Below are positions 10,333 to 27,532 of a stretch of 64,000 bases of DNA, one piece after another. Numbering within the stretch: the stretch's first letter is position 1; every line of letters begins with the position of its first letter. Both the position numbers and the translations under genes were made by a program. The notes under the pieces are model-generated. The model saw nothing but the letters and a program-made list of their open reading frames with translations, was not told the origin of the DNA and made no database searches. The stretch lies in NCBI RefSeq assembly GCF_000620845.1, contig NZ_KK211189.1, positions 697,662-761,661 on the forward strand, read 5' to 3'. Source of the DNA: Exiguobacterium marinum DSM 16307 (GTDB taxonomy: Bacteria > Bacillota > Bacilli > Exiguobacteriales > Exiguobacteriaceae).

Positions 10333-11109
10333 TTATACGCTAAAGAATGTTCTCAAATTTTCTTTCGGTAAGATGTTCCCGACGTAGAAGTCACCGAACT
10401 CACCGTATTTCGCACTCACTTCATCAAAGCGCATCTCGTAGACGATTTTCTTAAATTGAAGTGAATCTTCAGCGAAGAGCGTGACGCCCCATTCCCATGC
10501 ATCGAATCCTGTTGACCCACCGATGAATTGCTGAATCTTACCGGCATAGCTACGACCGATCATGCTGTGACGATACATGAGGTCTTTCCGTTCATCCATC
10601 GCTAACATATACCAGTTGTCTCCGTCACGACGAGCCTTGCTCATCGGGTAGAAACAAATGTGTGCGGCCTTTGGAAGTGTCGGATAGAGGCGTGAGCGGA
10701 TGTGTGGGTTTTGGTACGGGTCCCCATCTCCAGATCCACGATACATACCGAGCTCGATGACAGACACGTATGAATATGAGGGAATCATATAGTCGTATAA
10801 TGCTGTTTTGCGGAACGCACGCTCAACATCTTCAAGTTCGTTGAATGTCGGGCGAAGCACCATCAAGACGAGGTCTGCCTTTTGACCGAGAATCGAGTAG
10901 AAGGCGTGACTTCCTTCACCTTTTGCTTCGATTTCTTCGAGAGAAGCGAGGAATGTTGTGAACTCGTCAATCATGTGTTGACGCTTTTCGGCATCGACGA
11001 GCTTCAAACGAGCCCAATCGATCTTGCGGAAATCATGGAGTGAATACCATCCGTCTAATGTGGCGGCGGCATGTTGTGTATCTGTTGTAGGTACTGGACG
11101 TTCTGACAT
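10333..11109 (-). CDS. hemQ: Coproheme decarboxylase (heme synthase HemQ, chlorite-dismutase fold)
   Basis: Converts coproheme to heme b in the coproporphyrin-dependent pathway of Gram-positives. 258 residues, standard length. Features include the N-terminal TLDGWYSLHDFRKIDW, the Tyr-containing core DYMIPSYSYVSVIELGMY, KAAHICFYPMSKARRDGDNWY, and the FDAWEWGVTLFA segment near the heme site. It is divergent from pta, the same neighbourhood as ywfI-pta in Bacillus subtilis. AAAGGAG lies upstream of the ATG. Cytosolic, homopentameric by family knowledge. Confidence 0.95.
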   Translation of the reverse strand: MSERPVPTTDTQHAAATLDGWYSLHDFRKIDWARLKLVDAEKRQHMIDEFTTFLASLEEIEAKGEGSHAFYSILGQKADLVLMVLRPTFNELEDVERAFRKTALYDYMIPSYSYVSVIELGMYRGSGDGDPYQNPHIRSRLYPTLPKAAHICFYPMSKARRDGDNWYMLAMDERKDLMYRHSMIGRSYAGKIQQFIGGSTGFDAWEWGVTLFAEDSLQFKKIVYEMRFDEVSAKYGEFGDFYVGNILPKENLRTFFSV

Positions 11110-19104: not shown

Positions 19105-20286
19105 TCATGCGACTTTGAGTGTGGATTTGTCGGCGGCAGATGATAGATGCGTAGAAGACAACTTCACGACCCATTGAATTGTTTTAAATTGTATGAATAC
19201 AAGAGGTGATAAAGCGATATAATGCATCCACGTGTGTACAGTCAAGAAGCCGTTTTGAACGAGTCCCCAATGAACAAAGAACATTCCGAGTACCACATAT
19301 GCGACACCTGGACAAATGAGACCAAAACTTGCTCCGCCCTCTGGCTGATTTCTGAAGTAATCAAGTCGACGTAATACACTATATCCGATTAGTCCAACCG
19401 CGGTGCTCCCCATAAATAATATCCCGAGTACAATCAGCATAAAGGCTGCATTGACCTCAGTCTCTAGCAAGCGATGTGACACCATTGAGTTCAATCGAAC
19501 GAATGTAATACCAGTAAGGGTGAGAATCGGGATAGGTAACCAAATAGTCGGTGCGCTCGCTTTTGCAAAGCCTTTACTGAAGATGGCTCGTAGACTCATT
19601 CCGGCGAAAAATAAAATAATCCCCCATACAAGTGTCATAAAAAATATAGAGGCGATTGTCGCACTGACAGAAACCCATTGGATTTTTGACATAGCGGCAG
19701 GACTAGCTAATCCCACTGCGACCATGACGAACGAAAAAGCACCTAAGAATTGTCCGAATTGGTTCATATTTTCAACGTCAACTTGACCACTCACCATAAC
19801 CGATGCAATGTACTGAACATAACGAGTAAATGCATATTCACCAATGATTAAGAAGGCAATGAGGGCAAAAGGTAGTAAGGATTGAACATTAGACCAAAGT
19901 CCTGGAACAAACAAAGCACCTAGAATAAACAGTACATTGACACTCATCGCATAGGTGAGTGGTTCTGCCATGACAGCTACTTCTCCAGGAGTTCCTTTCA
20001 CTTTGGAATATCGATCGCTTTTCTTGAATTTACGAAATGAACGGATATTCCATGCAAGCAGACGGAAGTGATTTGCCGAGAAGCCAATAATGACCAATGA
20101 AACGAGAACGACAAGAATAGCTGGGATTCCTCCGCCCTCAAACGTCTCACGTAAATGATTGAAGTGAGGTAGTGGAGAATCAGGGTGTGGTATGAGGAAC
20201 ATAAAGTACATAAAAAATGACACAGCGAGCCCACCGTTGCCAAGAGCAGATAAAAAATATAATGGGTGATAGGTTTGTTTTGACAT
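19105..20286 (-). CDS. Ten-helix membrane protein, TDT/TsoY-like, of the sulfide locus
   Basis: 393 residues with about 10 hydrophobic segments, opening SKQTYHPLYFLSALGNGGLAVSFF and ending in a short charged tail. The layout resembles the tellurite-resistance/dicarboxylate transporter superfamily and, from memory, proteins named TsoY; I am not certain of either. No in-frame TGA is present, so it is not a selenoprotein. It is divergent from the sulfide:quinone oxidoreductase gene. Its promoter spacer contains a CstR/CsoR-like palindrome, so a role in sulfur-compound transport is a reasonable inference. Confidence 0.65.
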   Translation of the reverse strand: MSKQTYHPLYFLSALGNGGLAVSFFMYFMFLIPHPDSPLPHFNHLRETFEGGGIPAILVVLVSLVIIGFSANHFRLLAWNIRSFRKFKKSDRYSKVKGTPGEVAVMAEPLTYAMSVNVLFILGALFVPGLWSNVQSLLPFALIAFLIIGEYAFTRYVQYIASVMVSGQVDVENMNQFGQFLGAFSFVMVAVGLASPAAMSKIQWVSVSATIASIFFMTLVWGIILFFAGMSLRAIFSKGFAKASAPTIWLPIPILTLTGITFVRLNSMVSHRLLETEVNAAFMLIVLGILFMGSTAVGLIGYSVLRRLDYFRNQPEGGASFGLICPGVAYVVLGMFFVHWGLVQNGFLTVHTWMHYIALSPLVFIQFKTIQWVVKLSSTHLSSAADKSTLKVA

Positions 20287-20320
20287 GATAAAAAACTCCT
20301 CCTTTAAATTACATAATCAC

Positions 20321-20350
20321 TTTATACCCCCTAGGGTATCTAGAGGTCAA
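20321..20350 (-). promoter_or_regulatory. Promoter with CstR/CsoR-like operator for the membrane protein
   Basis: On the minus strand -35 TTGACC (20350-20345) and -10 TATAAA (20326-20321) have an 18-base spacer. The near-palindrome ATACCCCCTAGGGTAT (20324-20339) fills the spacer. This matches the known G/C-rich operators of CsoR-family repressors, including the persulfide sensor CstR. The site placement predicts repression. Confidence 0.65.
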
Positions 20351-20365
20351 GAGGGTTGGATATAA

Positions 20366-20383
20366 TTGAGGGCAATCCCTCAA
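20366..20383 (+). promoter_or_regulatory. GGG-N4-CCC palindrome, candidate response-regulator site
   Basis: TTGAGGGcaatCCCTCAA, 7-base arms around 4 bases, upstream of sqr. The core GGG-N4-CCC is the pattern reported for NreC of staphylococci, a NarL-type regulator related to the one encoded at 23551. A second GGG-actt-CCC occurs at 20501-20510. Confidence 0.5.
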
Positions 20384-20610
20384 TAATAGACATGGCTGTC
20401 TGTGTGATTTTCATCACCTCTGATAACGTTTAATATTGATATTTTGTTTGAAGATAATATGTGCTATATTACGTCAAGTGTTGATTCATAAGGAAATTGA
20501 GGGACTTCCCCTATATAAAATGTATACGCTTTCAAATATGCTTAAGTTGTATAGAAGTTCACTGTTTTGTCAAAAAAGAAAACATAGCAAGAAGGAAGGA
20601 GAGGCATACG

Positions 20611-21804
20611 ATGCGTACACATTATCGTGTTGTGATTGTAGGAGCAGGAACTGGGGGAATCAGTGTCGCGGCCAGATTGCTTCGAGAGAAACATCATTTA
20701 AGAGATGAGGTTTTATTGATTGATCCCGCAACCACTCACTATTATCAACCATTATGGACACTCGTCGGAGCAGGTATTGTCAAAAAAGAGGAGTCAGCCC
20801 GCACGATGGATTCACTCATTCCTGATGGGGCGACGTGGTTACAAGACCATGTGACGACATTTGATCCTGAAAACAATCAAGTCGAAACGTCAAGTCACGG
20901 AAAGATTCAATACGATTTTCTTGTCGTGTCACCAGGTATTGAAATTGACTGGGGGCGCGTCAAAGGGTTAAAAGAATCGCTTGGGTCGAAAGGAGTCTGC
21001 AGTAACTACTCATACGAACACGTTGATTATACATGGGATACCCTCGAAAAGCTCACAGGTGGAACTGCATTGTTCACGCACCCGGCTTCTCCAGTGAAAT
21101 GTGGGGGCGCCCCTCAAAAAATCATGTATCTGGCTGAAGAGTATTTAACGAAGACGGGAGTTCGTGATTCGAGTCGAGTGGTCTTCGGTTCGGCTAATCC
21201 CGCCATTTTCGATGTTACGAAGTATCGTGATGCGTTGGAGAAAGTACTCGAACGAAAACAGATTGAAACGCATTTCCGGGTTAATTTAACGGAAATAAAA
21301 GCAGATGAAAAAATTGCGGTTTTTGAAAACTTAGATTCTGGTGAATCGTTTGAGATGAGTTATGACATGATTCATGTCACACCACCGATGCAAGCTCCGG
21401 CGTTTATTCGGAACAGTTCATTGGCGGAATCCGGTGGTTGGGTCGATGTCGACAAACATACACTTCAACATAAACAATTTAAAAATGTGTTCGGGTTAGG
21501 TGATTGTACGAACCTACCTACATCGAAGACAGGTGCAGCGATTCGAAAGCAAGCGCCCGTCGTCGTGCGAAACGTACTGGATGTGATGTACGGTCATTTA
21601 CCGACTGCTTCTTATGATGGTTATTCTTCTTGTCCGATTGTCACGGGCTATGGTTCATTAATTCTCGCAGAGTTTGATTATGATAAAGTTCCACAAGAAT
21701 CTATGCCGTTCAATCAAGCAAAAGAAAGACGGAGCATGTATATTTTGAAAAAAGACTTTTTACCGATTATGTACTGGAATGGCATGTTGAAAGGGACGAT
21801 GTAG
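20611..21804 (+). CDS. sqr: Sulfide:quinone oxidoreductase
   Basis: Oxidises sulfide to zero-valent sulfur and passes electrons to the quinone pool; peripheral membrane flavoprotein. 397 residues. The N-terminal FAD motif is VVIVGAGTGGISVAARLL. Cys164 lies in SPVKCGGAPQK and Cys341 in SSCPIVTGYG, a likely catalytic redox pair. A second flavin motif is VFGLGDCTNLPTSKTGAAIRKQAP. The start chosen is the ATG at 20611 behind GAAGGAGAGG. It is followed 16 bases later by a DUF1641 gene. Confidence 0.9.
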   Translation: MRTHYRVVIVGAGTGGISVAARLLREKHHLRDEVLLIDPATTHYYQPLWTLVGAGIVKKEESARTMDSLIPDGATWLQDHVTTFDPENNQVETSSHGKIQYDFLVVSPGIEIDWGRVKGLKESLGSKGVCSNYSYEHVDYTWDTLEKLTGGTALFTHPASPVKCGGAPQKIMYLAEEYLTKTGVRDSSRVVFGSANPAIFDVTKYRDALEKVLERKQIETHFRVNLTEIKADEKIAVFENLDSGESFEMSYDMIHVTPPMQAPAFIRNSSLAESGGWVDVDKHTLQHKQFKNVFGLGDCTNLPTSKTGAAIRKQAPVVVRNVLDVMYGHLPTASYDGYSSCPIVTGYGSLILAEFDYDKVPQESMPFNQAKERRSMYILKKDFLPIMYWNGMLKGTM

Positions 21805-21820
21805 GAAGGGAGGGATCGTG

Positions 21821-22381
21821 ATGGAACGTTCTGCACTTGAAGAGCAAACAGTTGAAACAGTACTGACAAGACCCGACGTTGAGCAAGCACTGATTGCACT
21901 CATTGATCGTCTACCTAAAATCGAACAGTCTCTCCGTCGTTTGGAAGATGCTGTTGATTTTGGTATGGCGACGATGAAAGATGAAACGGTGAAAGAAAAA
22001 GTTGACGCGGCCATCGACAATTCCAACATACAAATCGAAACGCTTGAATCGGCTATAGAGCTGATTGAAAAATTACCGATGTTGTTACAGGTGACCAATC
22101 AACTTGAGTCCATGTTCACGTTTGTTCAAGATGTATACCACGATGAACAAACGAAAGAAATGATTGGCCAACGGATTGAGGGGTATGCCGTGCCAGCGAA
22201 AGAGAAGGTTGAATGGACACGAGATATGTGGGCGGAAGTACAAAGTCGTGTGGAACAGGATGACCGCCACATCACGCTATTCTCACTCATGCGATGGATT
22301 AAAGAACCGTCTGTTCAACACGGGCTCAAATATGTGCAAGCGACTGTTGATGTCTTAAATGAACGGACGATCAAGCGTTAA
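21821..22381 (+). CDS. DUF1641 protein
   Basis: About 187 residues, highly helical and acidic, with the repeated LEDAVDFGMATMKDETVKEKV and IELIEKLPMLLQVTNQLE features of DUF1641. Family knowledge: DUF1641 proteins sit beside SQR or formate-dehydrogenase-like genes in Bacillales and have no settled function. Here it directly follows sqr and is probably its partner or a membrane-recruitment factor; that is inference. The start is GTG 21818 or, more likely, ATG 21821 after GGGAGGGATC. Confidence 0.8.
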   Translation: MERSALEEQTVETVLTRPDVEQALIALIDRLPKIEQSLRRLEDAVDFGMATMKDETVKEKVDAAIDNSNIQIETLESAIELIEKLPMLLQVTNQLESMFTFVQDVYHDEQTKEMIGQRIEGYAVPAKEKVEWTRDMWAEVQSRVEQDDRHITLFSLMRWIKEPSVQHGLKYVQATVDVLNERTIKR

Positions 22382-22423
22382 ATATGAGTGGATTGTGATG
22401 AATAGGGTTTTCAAAAGAAATCG

Positions 22424-22450
22424 GACGTGCCTCGGTGCACGTCTTTTTTT
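22424..22450 (+). terminator. Terminator ending the sqr-DUF1641 transcript
   Basis: GACGTGC / GCACGTC with 6-nt loop and a T7 tail. It separates the sqr pair from the two-component genes. Confidence 0.85.
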
Positions 22451-22473
22451 CATGGGAAAGTGAAGTACATCAT

Positions 22474-22502
22474 TTGGGTTTATTTACCCATAGGGGTATT
22501 AT
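22474..22502 (+). promoter_or_regulatory. Promoter with CstR/CsoR-like operator for the two-component genes
   Basis: TTGGGT (22474-22479) and TATTAT (22497-22502) with a 17-base spacer. The spacer carries TTACCCATAGGGGTAT (22484-22499), the same kind of operator as at 20324-20339. Confidence 0.65.
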
Positions 22503-22532
22503 AGATATAAGAACTGAAAGAGTGCGGAGGGG

Positions 22533-23564
22533 ATGAGGTTGACACTACGTGACTTTGAACATCAAATATTAGACGTACTCAAAGACGGTGTGATTGTGAT
22601 GGATCATGACAGGAAAATCATATCGATGAACCAATCGGCCGAACAATTGACGGGATGGCAAGTCGGTGAACCGGTTCCTTATTGTTCTTTTTGTCAGAAA
22701 CGGAGAATGAGCTTAGGTGAAGAACGGTGTTACTTAATTGAACATGAACGTTCTCCATACTTCTCTTCAGAAATGCCGACTTACTCCGGAAAACTAGTAG
22801 ATGTTGAGATGAATACAGCTCGAATTCTAAATGATGCCAAAACAGGAGCCACATATTATTTGCTCGTTTTACGAGATTTCACAGAACGAAAGCGCCGAGA
22901 AGCGCACGCTTTAAGAGAAAAGATGGTTCGGGAATTGATTCATGCACGAGAGGAAGAACATGAACGGTTGGCTCAGGAACTACATGACGGTGTCGGACAA
23001 TCGCTCTTTAGTATCACCCTTGCGTTGAGTGCTCTTCAATCAGACGTCGCAGACCCGGATAAAAAAGAATATTTGACGTCCGTTCTATCTGAAGTAAGTC
23101 TCCTGATGGATCATGTAAGAAATTACTCGAAGCAATTAAGACCGATTGAGCTTGATCAATTTGGACTTGAATCCGCATTACAAGTGTTGCTTGATAGTTT
23201 TGCGACCCGTTACCCAAACGTAGCGTTTCATACAGACATTCGTCTGACGACACGATGCGATTCTCTTGTGGAGATTAATTTGTATCGGATTGTCCAAGAG
23301 GCACTCGTAAATACAATGAAATACGCAAATCCGACAATTGTGGATTGTCAGGTAATCGAGCGTGACGGGCGAGTTGAATTGTTATTCCGGGATGACGGGG
23401 CAGGTTTTGATGCGCTGAACGTCTCGAAAGGATTAGGGTTACGTCATATGGAAGAGAGAGCGAAAACGATTGAGGGTTTGTTTCAAATCGTTACAGCGGT
23501 AGGGGAAGGGACGCAAATTTCCGTGTCGGTTCCGAGAGAGCGAGGTTATTATGCAACCGATTAA
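22533..23564 (+). CDS. PAS-containing NarL-group sensor histidine kinase with CxxC-x11-C motif
   Basis: 343 residues with no clear membrane segment, so probably cytosolic. The N-terminal PAS-like domain (about 5-115) contains Cys51, Cys54 and Cys66 (YCSFC ... ERC), three of the four positions of the NreB Fe-S oxygen sensor pattern. A HisKA_3 domain follows with phospho-His151 in AQELHDGVGQSL, then an HATPase domain with DDGAGFDA and GLGLRHMEERA. The gene may start at the TTG 22539, which is better spaced from GGAGG. It overlaps the regulator gene by 14 bases. Likely input: oxygen, redox state or persulfide. Confidence 0.88.
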   Translation: MRLTLRDFEHQILDVLKDGVIVMDHDRKIISMNQSAEQLTGWQVGEPVPYCSFCQKRRMSLGEERCYLIEHERSPYFSSEMPTYSGKLVDVEMNTARILNDAKTGATYYLLVLRDFTERKRREAHALREKMVRELIHAREEEHERLAQELHDGVGQSLFSITLALSALQSDVADPDKKEYLTSVLSEVSLLMDHVRNYSKQLRPIELDQFGLESALQVLLDSFATRYPNVAFHTDIRLTTRCDSLVEINLYRIVQEALVNTMKYANPTIVDCQVIERDGRVELLFRDDGAGFDALNVSKGLGLRHMEERAKTIEGLFQIVTAVGEGTQISVSVPRERGYYATD

Positions 23565-24195
23565 TGTATTAATTGTCGATGATCATGAACTTGTACGTCG
23601 TGGGTTAAAACTGATGTTTCGTACGAATGAGCGCATTCGGGTAGTCGGGGAAGCGACAGAAGGGTCAGCAGCTATCCAAGAAGCGCTTCGGACACGTCCT
23701 GATGTCATTTTACTTGATATCACGATGCCGAATGGATTGGATGGTTTTGTGACAGTCAAAGCACTCGCAGAGGAAGTGCCCACCGTAAAAGTGATCTTAC
23801 TGACGATGCACGATGAAGAGATTTACATCAAACGTGCTCTCGAGCTGGGCGTCCCTGGTTATATGTCCAAAAATAGTGATCCTTCTCAACTAGAAGAAGG
23901 AATCAAACACGTATTTGACGGGAAACGATATTATGCTACTTCGTTGAACGAGGATTATATTGAAAAGATTGTCTTTCAAAAGAATAATCATCCGTTATTG
24001 ACGCGTCGTGAACTAGAAATCGTCCGATTGTCGACTCTCGGCTATAGCCATAATGAGATTGGAGAGAAATTAGGGATTAGTCCCAAAACAGTTGAAAATC
24101 ATAAAGCACGTGTCATGAATAAATTGCAAATCAAGCATCGTCATGAACTTGTGCAATATGCTTTGAAGAATCATTTGATTGAAATGGAAGGATGA
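23551..24195 (+). CDS. NarL/LuxR-family response regulator
   Basis: 214 residues. The receiver domain has the acidic pair DD at 10-11, phospho-acceptor Asp56 (VILLDITMP) and Lys in PGYMSKNS. The C-terminal LuxR HTH is LTRRELEIVRLSTLGYSHNEIGEKLGISPKTVENHKARVMNKL. It is translationally coupled to the kinase upstream and to the DUF202 gene downstream (ATGA). Candidate binding sites are the GGG-N4-CCC boxes upstream of sqr. Close in layout to NreC. Confidence 0.92.
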   Translation: MQPINVLIVDDHELVRRGLKLMFRTNERIRVVGEATEGSAAIQEALRTRPDVILLDITMPNGLDGFVTVKALAEEVPTVKVILLTMHDEEIYIKRALELGVPGYMSKNSDPSQLEEGIKHVFDGKRYYATSLNEDYIEKIVFQKNNHPLLTRRELEIVRLSTLGYSHNEIGEKLGISPKTVENHKARVMNKLQIKHRHELVQYALKNHLIEMEG

Positions 24196-24575
24196 TTGAA
24201 AGAATGAAGTTAGAAGTAGAAAAAACGATAGATTCTCAATATATCCAGCAACACTTAGCGAACGAGCGGACATTTTTGGCATGGATTCGTACTGCGATTA
24301 CCGTGATCGGGATTGGGTTTTTAGTGACGAACTTTCATTATTATCGAAGCGAGAATTTAAGTGGGGCAGAACATCAATTGATTTCAGCAATCGGGATGTT
24401 ATCCATTTTGTTCGGCATCAGCACGATTCTTGTAGGTACCCGTTCATATTTGAAAAAAGTGCATACGATTAACACGCAACAATTCAAATCTGCGAAGATG
24501 AGTCTCATTGCTTTGGCGATTGGGATGGTCTTTATCTTTTCACTGATCCTCGTAGTGAGCTACTTTTTGTTTTAA
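24192..24575 (+). CDS. DUF202 small membrane protein
   Basis: 127 residues. The DUF202 signature QQHLANERTFLAWIRTAITVIGIGF is followed by two more hydrophobic segments (three in total). Function unknown in the family (YidH/YidG type). The ATG at 24192 overlaps the regulator stop; the ATG at 24204 is an alternative start. As the last gene of the two-component operon it may serve sulfide or redox physiology, by context only. Confidence 0.8.
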   Translation: MIERMKLEVEKTIDSQYIQQHLANERTFLAWIRTAITVIGIGFLVTNFHYYRSENLSGAEHQLISAIGMLSILFGISTILVGTRSYLKKVHTINTQQFKSAKMSLIALAIGMVFIFSLILVVSYFLF

Positions 24576-25240: not shown

Positions 25241-27532
25241 TCAATCCTGAAATAACAAATCAAGCAACATCTCGCCAATTGGTCGTTCTTTTCCCTCATA
25301 GGGGAACGCATGGATATGAATGGCAGGATTAAAATTCAGTTCGATGATGCCGTATTCAATGTGCTCATCATTAAGAGATGGGAGCATCATATCGACACCA
25401 CAGATTGTTGTCCCGACTGACTTAGCGGCATCGACAGCAATGCGTTTATAGACATCAGGGATTTGGTCTGTGTAGTCGATGCTGTCGCCACCTGTACTGA
25501 TATTAGAGTTTTCGCGCAAGAAGACACGCTCATCGAGAGCGGGAATACTATCGGGTGTCTTACCTTGAGCACGTAAAAATGAAATGACGATGTCATCGAT
25601 TTCGATTTTCTCGAGTGGTGTCTTATATCCTTTCCCACGCAACGGGTTTTCATTTTTTGTCGCAACGAGTTGACGAATGGAAGAGGTGCCATCCCCTGTG
25701 ACGTTCGCTGGGACACGATGGAGGATGCCCGCGACTTCATCTCCGATGACGAGGAAGCGATATTCTTTTCCAGGTAAAAACGTCTCCAGTAAAACGACAT
25801 CGTCAAACGTTTTCGCATACTGAAATGCAGATAGAGCTTCCTCATAAGTCGTTCCGTCTTTAAAAATATGAATGCCTACGCCGAAGTTCGTGGACTTCGG
25901 TTTTAAGACGATTGGTTTATGTGAAAACAGGTGCCATGCATGCGATAAATCAGATTCGTTATGAAGTTCTACACCTTCAGGGACACGAATTCCGTGTTCA
26001 GCGAGTACATACTTCGTTACCGTTTTGTTTTCCATCATCAGGACTGATACATAATTGTCTTTTGATGTCTTTGTTGCCTGTTTGACGTACTCCTCATATT
26101 TGCCGTTGTGAATGCGGATAAATTGATCGGACCAATCGATGACGTCGACACGATACCCCCGTTTGATGGCAGATTTCATTAATACTTGAGTAGACAACTC
26201 AAGGTCGGAATAACCATGTACACGAAAACGATTTGCATACGCGTCCTCATAAAAGTGTTCGGCTTGGGCCAGAGACCACGCGTTATAACCCGTCTCGGTC
26301 ATAATCGTCTTCAATCGAGAAGCGTACGTCATGTCCACGTGATCAATTTTTTCTCGTAGAGAGGGGAAGACATCTTTGAAGCCGAGGTCATATTTCGTGT
26401 CGAACGCATCGATCGCGTCGAGAAGTTCTGTCGCGTACGTGTGTAGTTTTACGTCGTCACCATCTCGAGTCAATGTGTTCGTGGGAGACATGCCTTCTTT
26501 GGCGACACGTTGTTGGTTATTATACGCTTCAGCCTGCCAATCGAAATAAGTTGTCTCCTCAGTAAATGTCAAGTAGAGCAAAAATAGATGAAGAAACCGT
26601 AAATCTGAACGCGCGATCCCGGTCTTTTCAAACGGATTCAAATCAATATTGCGAATTTCGATGTAGTCGATACCGTTTGCCTCGAGCTTGTCCAAGTCGT
26701 TGCCACCTCTCGATGTTTTCAATCGAATCGGGGAGTAGAGTTCGTTTGGATGTGTAATCTCCCCTTTGGCAATGAATCGACGTACATCATTTGTATATGC
26801 TGAGAGTGTCCTATAGTTTGGATAAAGTGGTTCGACATTCGTATAGCCACAGTCGCTATTCCGATAGGACAACGCTTGTTTATTTGAAAAGGTATCCTCA
26901 TGGAGCGCTTGCATCTGGCTGACACATCGTTCTTCATAACTCGCATGAACAGCCGGGGTAGCGCCGAGCAAATAGACGATGAGCCATCGCATCCGTAAAT
27001 ATTGGCGAACCAGCTTCAAGTAAAGGTGATCTTTAAAGTGTCGATATTGCTCAGGAGACCCTTCGTATAGTGTGGACAACATCTCATCGGAAAACGAAAA
27101 ATTGAAATGAATTCCGGAAATGAGTTGTTTTTTCGCCCCATATTTTTGGAGTAAATGCTCCCGGTAACGACTAGCCTCGAGTCCGGACACACCAAAGTCA
27201 GCTAGTGGAATCGTACCGCCTTCCGGTAAGGCGCATGGCATCGATTGTGGCCAAAGGCGTTCGTCGCCTATGTTTAGCGCAGTGATATCATAAAGCGTTT
27301 CTAAAAAGTGATGTGCCCCCTCAATCGTCGGAAACGTCGGGGTGACGAGCTCGATTTGACTTTCAGAGAAGTCGGTCGTGATATATGGATGCGTTGCCTT
27401 ATGACCGAGTGACTTTGGGTGCTTCGTAATAGCGAGTGTGCCGTCTGACGTGACCCGCAACATTTCCCGCTCGATGGCAAACTTTCCGCTCGTGATGAGA
27501 CGATGGGGTAGTTGATTAAACTGCTTCTGCAA
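25241..27532 (-). CDS. gshF: Bifunctional glutamate-cysteine ligase/glutathione synthetase
   Basis: Makes glutathione from Glu, Cys and Gly in one polypeptide. 763 residues, typical for GshF. The N-terminal ligase half (about 1-480) has FAIEREMLRV, ITTDFSESQIELVTP and TYASRLKTIM. The C-terminal ATP-grasp half (about 490-763) has LKPKSTNFGVGIHIF, VLLETFLPGKEYRFLVIGD and NFNPAIHIHAFP. The start is TTG with a weak GGAAGTGA site, overlapping the MATE gene by 17 bases, so translation is probably coupled to it. Cytosolic. Confidence 0.95.
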   Translation of the reverse strand: MQKQFNQLPHRLITSGKFAIEREMLRVTSDGTLAITKHPKSLGHKATHPYITTDFSESQIELVTPTFPTIEGAHHFLETLYDITALNIGDERLWPQSMPCALPEGGTIPLADFGVSGLEASRYREHLLQKYGAKKQLISGIHFNFSFSDEMLSTLYEGSPEQYRHFKDHLYLKLVRQYLRMRWLIVYLLGATPAVHASYEERCVSQMQALHEDTFSNKQALSYRNSDCGYTNVEPLYPNYRTLSAYTNDVRRFIAKGEITHPNELYSPIRLKTSRGGNDLDKLEANGIDYIEIRNIDLNPFEKTGIARSDLRFLHLFLLYLTFTEETTYFDWQAEAYNNQQRVAKEGMSPTNTLTRDGDDVKLHTYATELLDAIDAFDTKYDLGFKDVFPSLREKIDHVDMTYASRLKTIMTETGYNAWSLAQAEHFYEDAYANRFRVHGYSDLELSTQVLMKSAIKRGYRVDVIDWSDQFIRIHNGKYEEYVKQATKTSKDNYVSVLMMENKTVTKYVLAEHGIRVPEGVELHNESDLSHAWHLFSHKPIVLKPKSTNFGVGIHIFKDGTTYEEALSAFQYAKTFDDVVLLETFLPGKEYRFLVIGDEVAGILHRVPANVTGDGTSSIRQLVATKNENPLRGKGYKTPLEKIEIDDIVISFLRAQGKTPDSIPALDERVFLRENSNISTGGDSIDYTDQIPDVYKRIAVDAAKSVGTTICGVDMMLPSLNDEHIEYGIIELNFNPAIHIHAFPYEGKERPIGEMLLDLLFQD

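Follow-up and report, generated by a model that had tools for sequence, protein, structure and literature searches.

In Bacillus licheniformis, the CstR-like protein YrkD represses an 11-gene cluster and the sulfide-responsive two-component system NreBC amplifies sqr-pdo (PMC9918477). Of the two intergenic regions to which YrkD binds, the one that separates nreC from sqr is also a target of phosphorylated NreC (PMC9918477); as far as we found, a sulfide response of NreBC has been published for B. licheniformis only (PMC9918477). Staphylococcus aureus CstR was reported to control directly what is likely a single operon, sqr included (PMC5480029), and Staphylococcus carnosus NreB carries an oxygen-sensitive [4Fe-4S] cluster (PMC8139620). 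Here we describe a sulfide oxidation locus in a 64,000-nucleotide stretch of the Exiguobacterium marinum DSM 16307 genome (contig NZ_KK211189.1, positions 697,662 to 761,661; referred to as the window), in which sqr and a DUF1641-like gene are flanked by tsoY, encoding a ten-helix membrane protein, and by the genes of an NreBC-type two-component system (Table 1). We propose that an unlinked CstR gates tsoY and the two-component genes and that the response regulator then activates sqr, a sequence-based reading to which we give a probability of roughly 0.78.

The predicted arrangement resembles that of B. licheniformis MW3 in having a CstR-like repressor above an NreBC-type system that would activate sqr, in the NreC-type palindrome at the sqr promoter and in the kinds of genes involved. 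Since the B. licheniformis cascade has been published, the cascade itself is of a known kind; the variant predicted here lies in its layout. In MW3, yrkD belongs to the cluster as the first gene of a single 11-gene transcript. In Exiguobacterium, the repressor gene lies elsewhere in the chromosome, sqr precedes the two-component genes, which have a separate CstR-type promoter, and tsoY joins the locus with candidate sites of both kinds. Similarly, S. carnosus NreABC shares a PAS-HisKA_3 kinase with clustered PAS cysteines, a NarL-type regulator and a GC-rich palindromic target. It differs in that the Exiguobacterium operon is made of a histidine kinase, a response regulator and DUF202 with no NreA, that three cysteines are invariant, and that the target would be sqr, not nitrate respiration.

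CstR-type operators and their unlinked repressor

An earlier note on this DNA had placed two CsoR/CstR-like 16-mers at mirror positions, each in the -35/-10 spacer of a promoter. Inspection located both exactly as described (ATACCCCCTAGGGTAT at tsoY and TTACCCATAGGGGTAT at the kinase gene), and the boxes of both promoters could be read. The start codons lie ~37 base pairs (bp; tsoY) and ~33 bp (kinase) downstream of the operators, on opposite strands, and the final TAT of each operator forms the first half of the -10 box. The genome scan that the note had suggested returned two exact occurrences of TACCCN4GGGTA in the 2,814,016-base genome, both at this locus. The reversed pattern, used as a control, gave 6 matches, so the count is not in excess, and it is position and conservation that carry weight for the operators. 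Under a matrix trained solely with cstR promoters from this genus, the tsoY operator ranked first in the window with 22.9 bits, and no such site occurred in 3 Mb of random sequence.

The tsoY gene was present in 4/19 genus genomes and its operator in all four; the kinase operator was found in the five genomes with the kinase at the locus, including one (G001) without tsoY. The palindromes were thus kept in all carriers among the genus genomes. At the tsoY operator, 14/16 columns were invariant across four genomes, with 8/40 invariant in the upstream and 17/40 in the downstream flank; the kinase operator had 13/16 invariant columns across five genomes, and its flanks 7/40 upstream and 4/40 downstream. 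Two distant tsoY genes from other Bacilli families were directly preceded by ATACCCCTATAGGTAT and ATACCCCTGGGGGTAT. The family of one of the genomes surveyed, G185, contained one tsoY carrier among 261 genomes, and the operator link there comes from this single case.

A search of the window for the CsoR family returned no gene, as the earlier note had observed, and the unlinked repressor that it predicted was found at C2:153158. This gene encodes an 88-residue protein with two cysteines and an Asn replacing the copper-binding His of CsoR (PF02583, CsoR/DUF156, E=2.4e-26; nearest solved chains 7mq1-7mq3, E about 1e-16). The genome contains only two CsoR-family genes, one CstR-type and one copper-type; the other, C2:2515641, has a Cys-His-Cys pattern and adjoins a copA-like gene. 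The genus motif EGKEC...KNLEQC of the former compares with SDRYC...RHMRKC in the CsoR of the same genome. Judged by these residues, the product of C2:153158 is CstR and that of C2:2515641 is a copper-type CsoR. Both genes were present in 19/19 genomes, and CstR is 93-100% identical across the genus.

The cstR gene is divergent from a rhodanese gene; next after the latter comes a gene for a CoA-disulfide reductase / rhodanese / TusA / DsrE fusion. The interval between cstR and the rhodanese gene carries ATACCCCCTTAGGTAT, and a strong version of the operator was found there in 19/19 genus genomes. In E. marinum, ATACCTTAGGGGGTAT directly precedes a membrane rhodanese gene (C2:689294), and an identical operator is found at the cst operon (C2:2450174), where it separates tauE and a rhodanese gene from a group made up of a rhodanese gene, a metallo-beta-lactamase/rhodanese persulfide-dioxygenase-like gene and a gene for a thiol-disulfide protein. 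At the tsoY, kinase, membrane rhodanese and cst sites, the right half-site enters a -10-like box. The occurrence of the same 16-mer at cstR itself and at other sulfur genes supports the assignment of the two locus palindromes as CsoR/CstR-type operators.

The strict pattern TACCCN4GGGTA was a poor regulon finder; the relaxed pattern ATACCN6GGTAT added three further sulfur promoters and two unplaced sites. The strong sites adjoin sulfur genes, with the exception of these two, at C2:981048 (intergenic) and C2:2054434 (within a coding region), which we treated as probable noise. The former is ATACCCTAATTGGTAT at C2:981048-981063 (L018 / L038), with no sulfur gene near. Sites with one mismatch at C2:39318, 250421, 552973 and 585634 were dropped because they lie inside genes, and those at C2:132584 and 383191 have no adjoining sulfur gene. 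Similarly to the S. aureus cst system, the predicted regulon combines a CstR-type protein with repressed TauE, sulfurtransferase and persulfide dioxygenase genes; unlike that system, it is predicted to have at least five dispersed operators, and sqr would not be directly under one.

A second palindrome at the sqr promoter

The CstR scheme of the earlier note stood for tsoY and the kinase gene, where the operators were found, but it missed that sqr has no CstR site and carries a different palindrome instead. The tsoY-sqr interval contains no CstR site except that of tsoY, and we rejected the idea that CstR acts directly on sqr here, as sqr has no operator of its own. The sqr palindrome, TGAGGG-N4-CCCCTA, has a polarity opposite to that of the CstR operator and lies at an activator position. 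Transcription starts were inferred from promoter boxes, the inferred sqr promoter having a weak -10 TATGCT at 20537-20542; on this basis, the positions given in Table 1 correspond to class II activation for the sqr palindrome and class I for the tsoY palindrome. All 16 bases of TGAGGGACTTCCCCTA were invariant in five genomes, and TGAGGGN4CCCYYA occurs in this genome only at TGAGGGACTTCCCCTA and at TGAGGGCAATCCCTCA, before tsoY.

Kinase homologues more than 40% identical along their length were found in many genera, and kinase and regulator genes adjoin sqr across Bacilli. Loci of this composition carry TAGGGG-N4-CCCCTA upstream of sqr, from which TGAGGGACTTCCCCTA is two bases off. In a survey of 42 Bacilli sqr loci, 23 of them with an NreB-type kinase, a palindrome with up to 2 mismatches within 350 bp of sqr was detected in 19/23 loci with the kinase and in 1/19 without (Fisher p=3.4e-7, a guide only, the loci being related by descent). 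In two of the four kinase-bearing exceptions, the palindrome stands before cstB, the gene preceding sqr. The sole palindrome locus without a kinase (L167) comes from a sequence ending ~2.3 kb after sqr. In the sister species B. paralicheniformis, CstR-like 16-mers lie on both sides of yrkD and GTAGGGGAGTTCCCCTAT lies before sqr; by analogy, these sites tie both motifs to the intervals probed in B. licheniformis, intervals and not probe sequences having been matched. Since sqr lacks a CstR site and has a palindrome of its own that tracks the two-component system, its control by CstR is probably indirect.

In one genus genome, G003, sqr is accompanied by the DUF1641-like gene and DUF202 with no kinase match; G003 is the only one of this kind. 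No TGAGGGN4CCCYYA was found in the G003 genome. At its sqr promoter, the CstR-type operator ATACCTGGTGGGGTATAAT runs directly into a consensus -10; DUF202 is preceded by TTACCCCTAGGGGTAT. In this genome, the absence of the activator layer thus appears to go with direct repressor control, a change that may have run in either direction.

These data bear on a different explanation, in which CstR controls tsoY and the two-component genes but another factor binds TGAGGG-N4-CCCYYA, so that sqr is independent and there is no cascade. Such a factor would be compatible with L167, which has the palindrome with no kinase in reach, and binding of the palindrome by the regulator is itself a deduction. We nevertheless consider this explanation improbable: palindrome and kinase go together in the Bacilli loci, both are missing in G003, and binding of phosphorylated NreC in the corresponding B. 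licheniformis interval has been published (PMC9918477).

Further NreC-type palindromes were observed in genome G006, of the same genus (L081:3612-3627 and L081:4408-4423; L128). A second cluster there, sqr-DUF1641-persulfide dioxygenase-tauE-kinase-regulator, carries a palindrome itself, and another palindrome lies before a peroxiredoxin gene. Similar peroxiredoxin-like genes were seen after the two-component genes in L138, L158 and L161.

A proposed two-layer circuit

In the circuit that we propose, CstR would bind the 16-bp operators that overlap spacer and -10 box at the tsoY and two-component promoters, as well as those at cstR and its divergent rhodanese gene, the membrane rhodanese gene and the cst operon. 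Reactive sulfur would modify both CstR cysteines and release the protein from DNA. The derepressed NreB-like kinase would then sense sulfide or a related redox signal via its Cys-rich PAS domain and phosphorylate the NreC-like regulator, which would bind TGAGGG-N4-CCCYYA and activate sqr-DUF1641 (from ~-43) and probably tsoY (from ~-60). The sulfide:quinone reductase (SQR) would convert sulfide to sulfane sulfur, to be processed by rhodaneses and the cst persulfide dioxygenase, and TsoY would probably conduct a sulfur oxyanion or hydrosulfide.

Several points weigh against this circuit. What the analysis itself shows are sequences, their conservation and co-occurrence, the residues of the repressor and the predicted TsoY fold, and all functional steps of the circuit (binding, effectors, direction of regulation and transport substrate) are deduced from sequence. 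The kinase operator is weak under the cstR-promoter matrix (10.5 bits, fourth in the window, not significant alone), so that the argument for this site comes from its conservation. The TGAGGG of the genus site is unlike the TAGGGG found elsewhere, and the link between regulator and site accordingly relies on co-occurrence. The promoter swap was seen in a single genome. Finally, CstR and CsoR operators are alike, and their sequences would allow cross-talk.

This likeness is also the basis for a reading in which the copper sensor CsoR, not CstR, recognises the operators, tying the sulfide genes to copper stress. The genome does encode a CsoR, and CsoR-family operators have similar GC tracts. However, the spacer of the csoR promoter (L007 around 10938-11020) is occupied by a different, G-tract element, TACGGGGTAGGGGTATA, and this promoter lacks any match to the CstR 16-mer, which the cstR promoter carries in 19/19 genomes; as the strong sites also adjoin sulfur genes apart from the two unplaced ones, we regard a copper response as very unlikely. 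That the palindromes are chance or GC-rich promoter sequence read by no repressor is less credible still and was rejected on conservation: TACCCN4GGGTA is not over-represented genome-wide and the kinase site scores poorly, but 13-14/16 columns are invariant against low flank conservation, the placement over the -10 box is fixed and the operator recurs in other families.

If the two-layer reading holds, sulfide sensing of this type would extend from one experimental case to a pattern across many Bacilli, with candidate sites for both layers, and direct CstR targets would be predicted beyond one operon. The natural promoter swap would show how the layers can be exchanged. We lean slightly towards a broader picture in which CstR governs a dispersed regulon whose main local target is another sensor, the NreBC-type system acting on sqr, the layers are exchangeable in evolution and TsoY is under both.

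Locus genes and the predicted TsoY fold

Table 1 Features of the sulfide oxidation locus (window positions).
Feature	Position	Strand	Basis or remark
tsoY, 393-residue ten-helix membrane protein, TsoY family	19105-20286	-	NCBIfam NF047644 E=1.4e-124
tsoY promoter	20321-20350	-	-35 TTGACC 20345-20350, -10 TATAAA 20321-20326, 18-bp spacer
CstR-type operator ATACCCCCTAGGGTAT	20324-20339		overlaps spacer and -10 of tsoY promoter
Candidate NreC-type regulator site TGAGGGCAATCCCTCA	20367-20382		centre ~-60 of tsoY promoter
Candidate NreC-type regulator site TGAGGGACTTCCCCTA	20498-20513		centre ~-43 of inferred sqr promoter
sqr, sulfide:quinone reductase-like flavoprotein, type III-related	20611-21804	+	PF07992
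DUF1641-like protein, sqr partner	21821-22381	+	syntenic homologue in L137 passes PF07849
Two-component gene promoter	22474-22502	+	-35 TTGGGT 22474-22479, -10 TATTAT 22497-22502, 17-bp spacer
CstR-type operator TTACCCATAGGGGTAT	22484-22499		overlaps spacer and -10 of kinase promoter
PAS-HisKA_3 sensor kinase, NreB-like, invariant CX2CX11C in PAS	22533-23564	+	profile matches, homologue comparison
NarL/NreC-type response regulator	23551-24195	+	PF00072 and PF00196
DUF202 membrane protein, operon end	24192-24575	+	PF02656 E=1.1e-17

The two genes that the earlier note had named between the operators, sqr and DUF1641, were borne out by the matches in Table 1; the DUF1641-like protein of the window lies below the reach of the Pfam model itself, which its syntenic homologue passes. 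The sqr product scored 252 bits with NF049943, under the 525-bit cut-off, and SQR Cys130, 164 and 341 were invariant in 19 homologues. None of the papers in the library searched links DUF1641 with sulfide:quinone reductase.

The PAS domain of S. carnosus NreB has a four-cysteine [4Fe-4S] motif, CX2CX11CX2C. In the kinase described here, the three cysteines of CX2CX11C were invariant in 20/20 homologues and the fourth NreB position is not a cysteine. We found this triad mentioned nowhere in the main text of the paper on B. licheniformis NreB. A three-cysteine centre with one open coordination site could, speculatively, bind sulfide, making this motif a candidate sulfide-sensing centre.

TsoY scored 415.8 bits with NF047644 (cut-off 150) and thus belongs to this family. 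Its AlphaFold model (predicted local distance difference test score 81.8, predicted template modelling score 0.84, seven sequences) matched SLAC1/TehA with Z 27-30 over ~300 residues, the next unrelated entry being at 14.8; Foldseek gave a probability of 1.00 and a modest E of 2e-3 at best. TsoY is therefore predicted to adopt the SLAC1/TehA (TDT) ten-helix anion-channel fold, to which the likeness is confined: identity is ~10%, there is no Pfam match, and a conductance for anions, like an involvement in the passage of sulfite, thiosulfate or sulfide, is our inference from the model. The uncharacterised TsoY family would thereby gain a likely control circuit as well as a channel fold and, if true, TsoY, as a SLAC1-fold channel answering to both layers, would represent a new exporter of sulfur anions.

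An in-frame TGA was found in three TsoY homologues, which fits the selenoprotein subfamily that has been annotated. Single in-frame TGA codons, probably encoding selenocysteine, were noted in the homologues of L075, L076, L077 and L088, the last with two tsoY copies in tandem. Near the locus, and kept in relatives that have it, is the gene for the bifunctional glutathione synthase GshAB (window 25241-27532, minus strand; NF002688, 904 bits); glutathione persulfide may be a thiol-borne signal.

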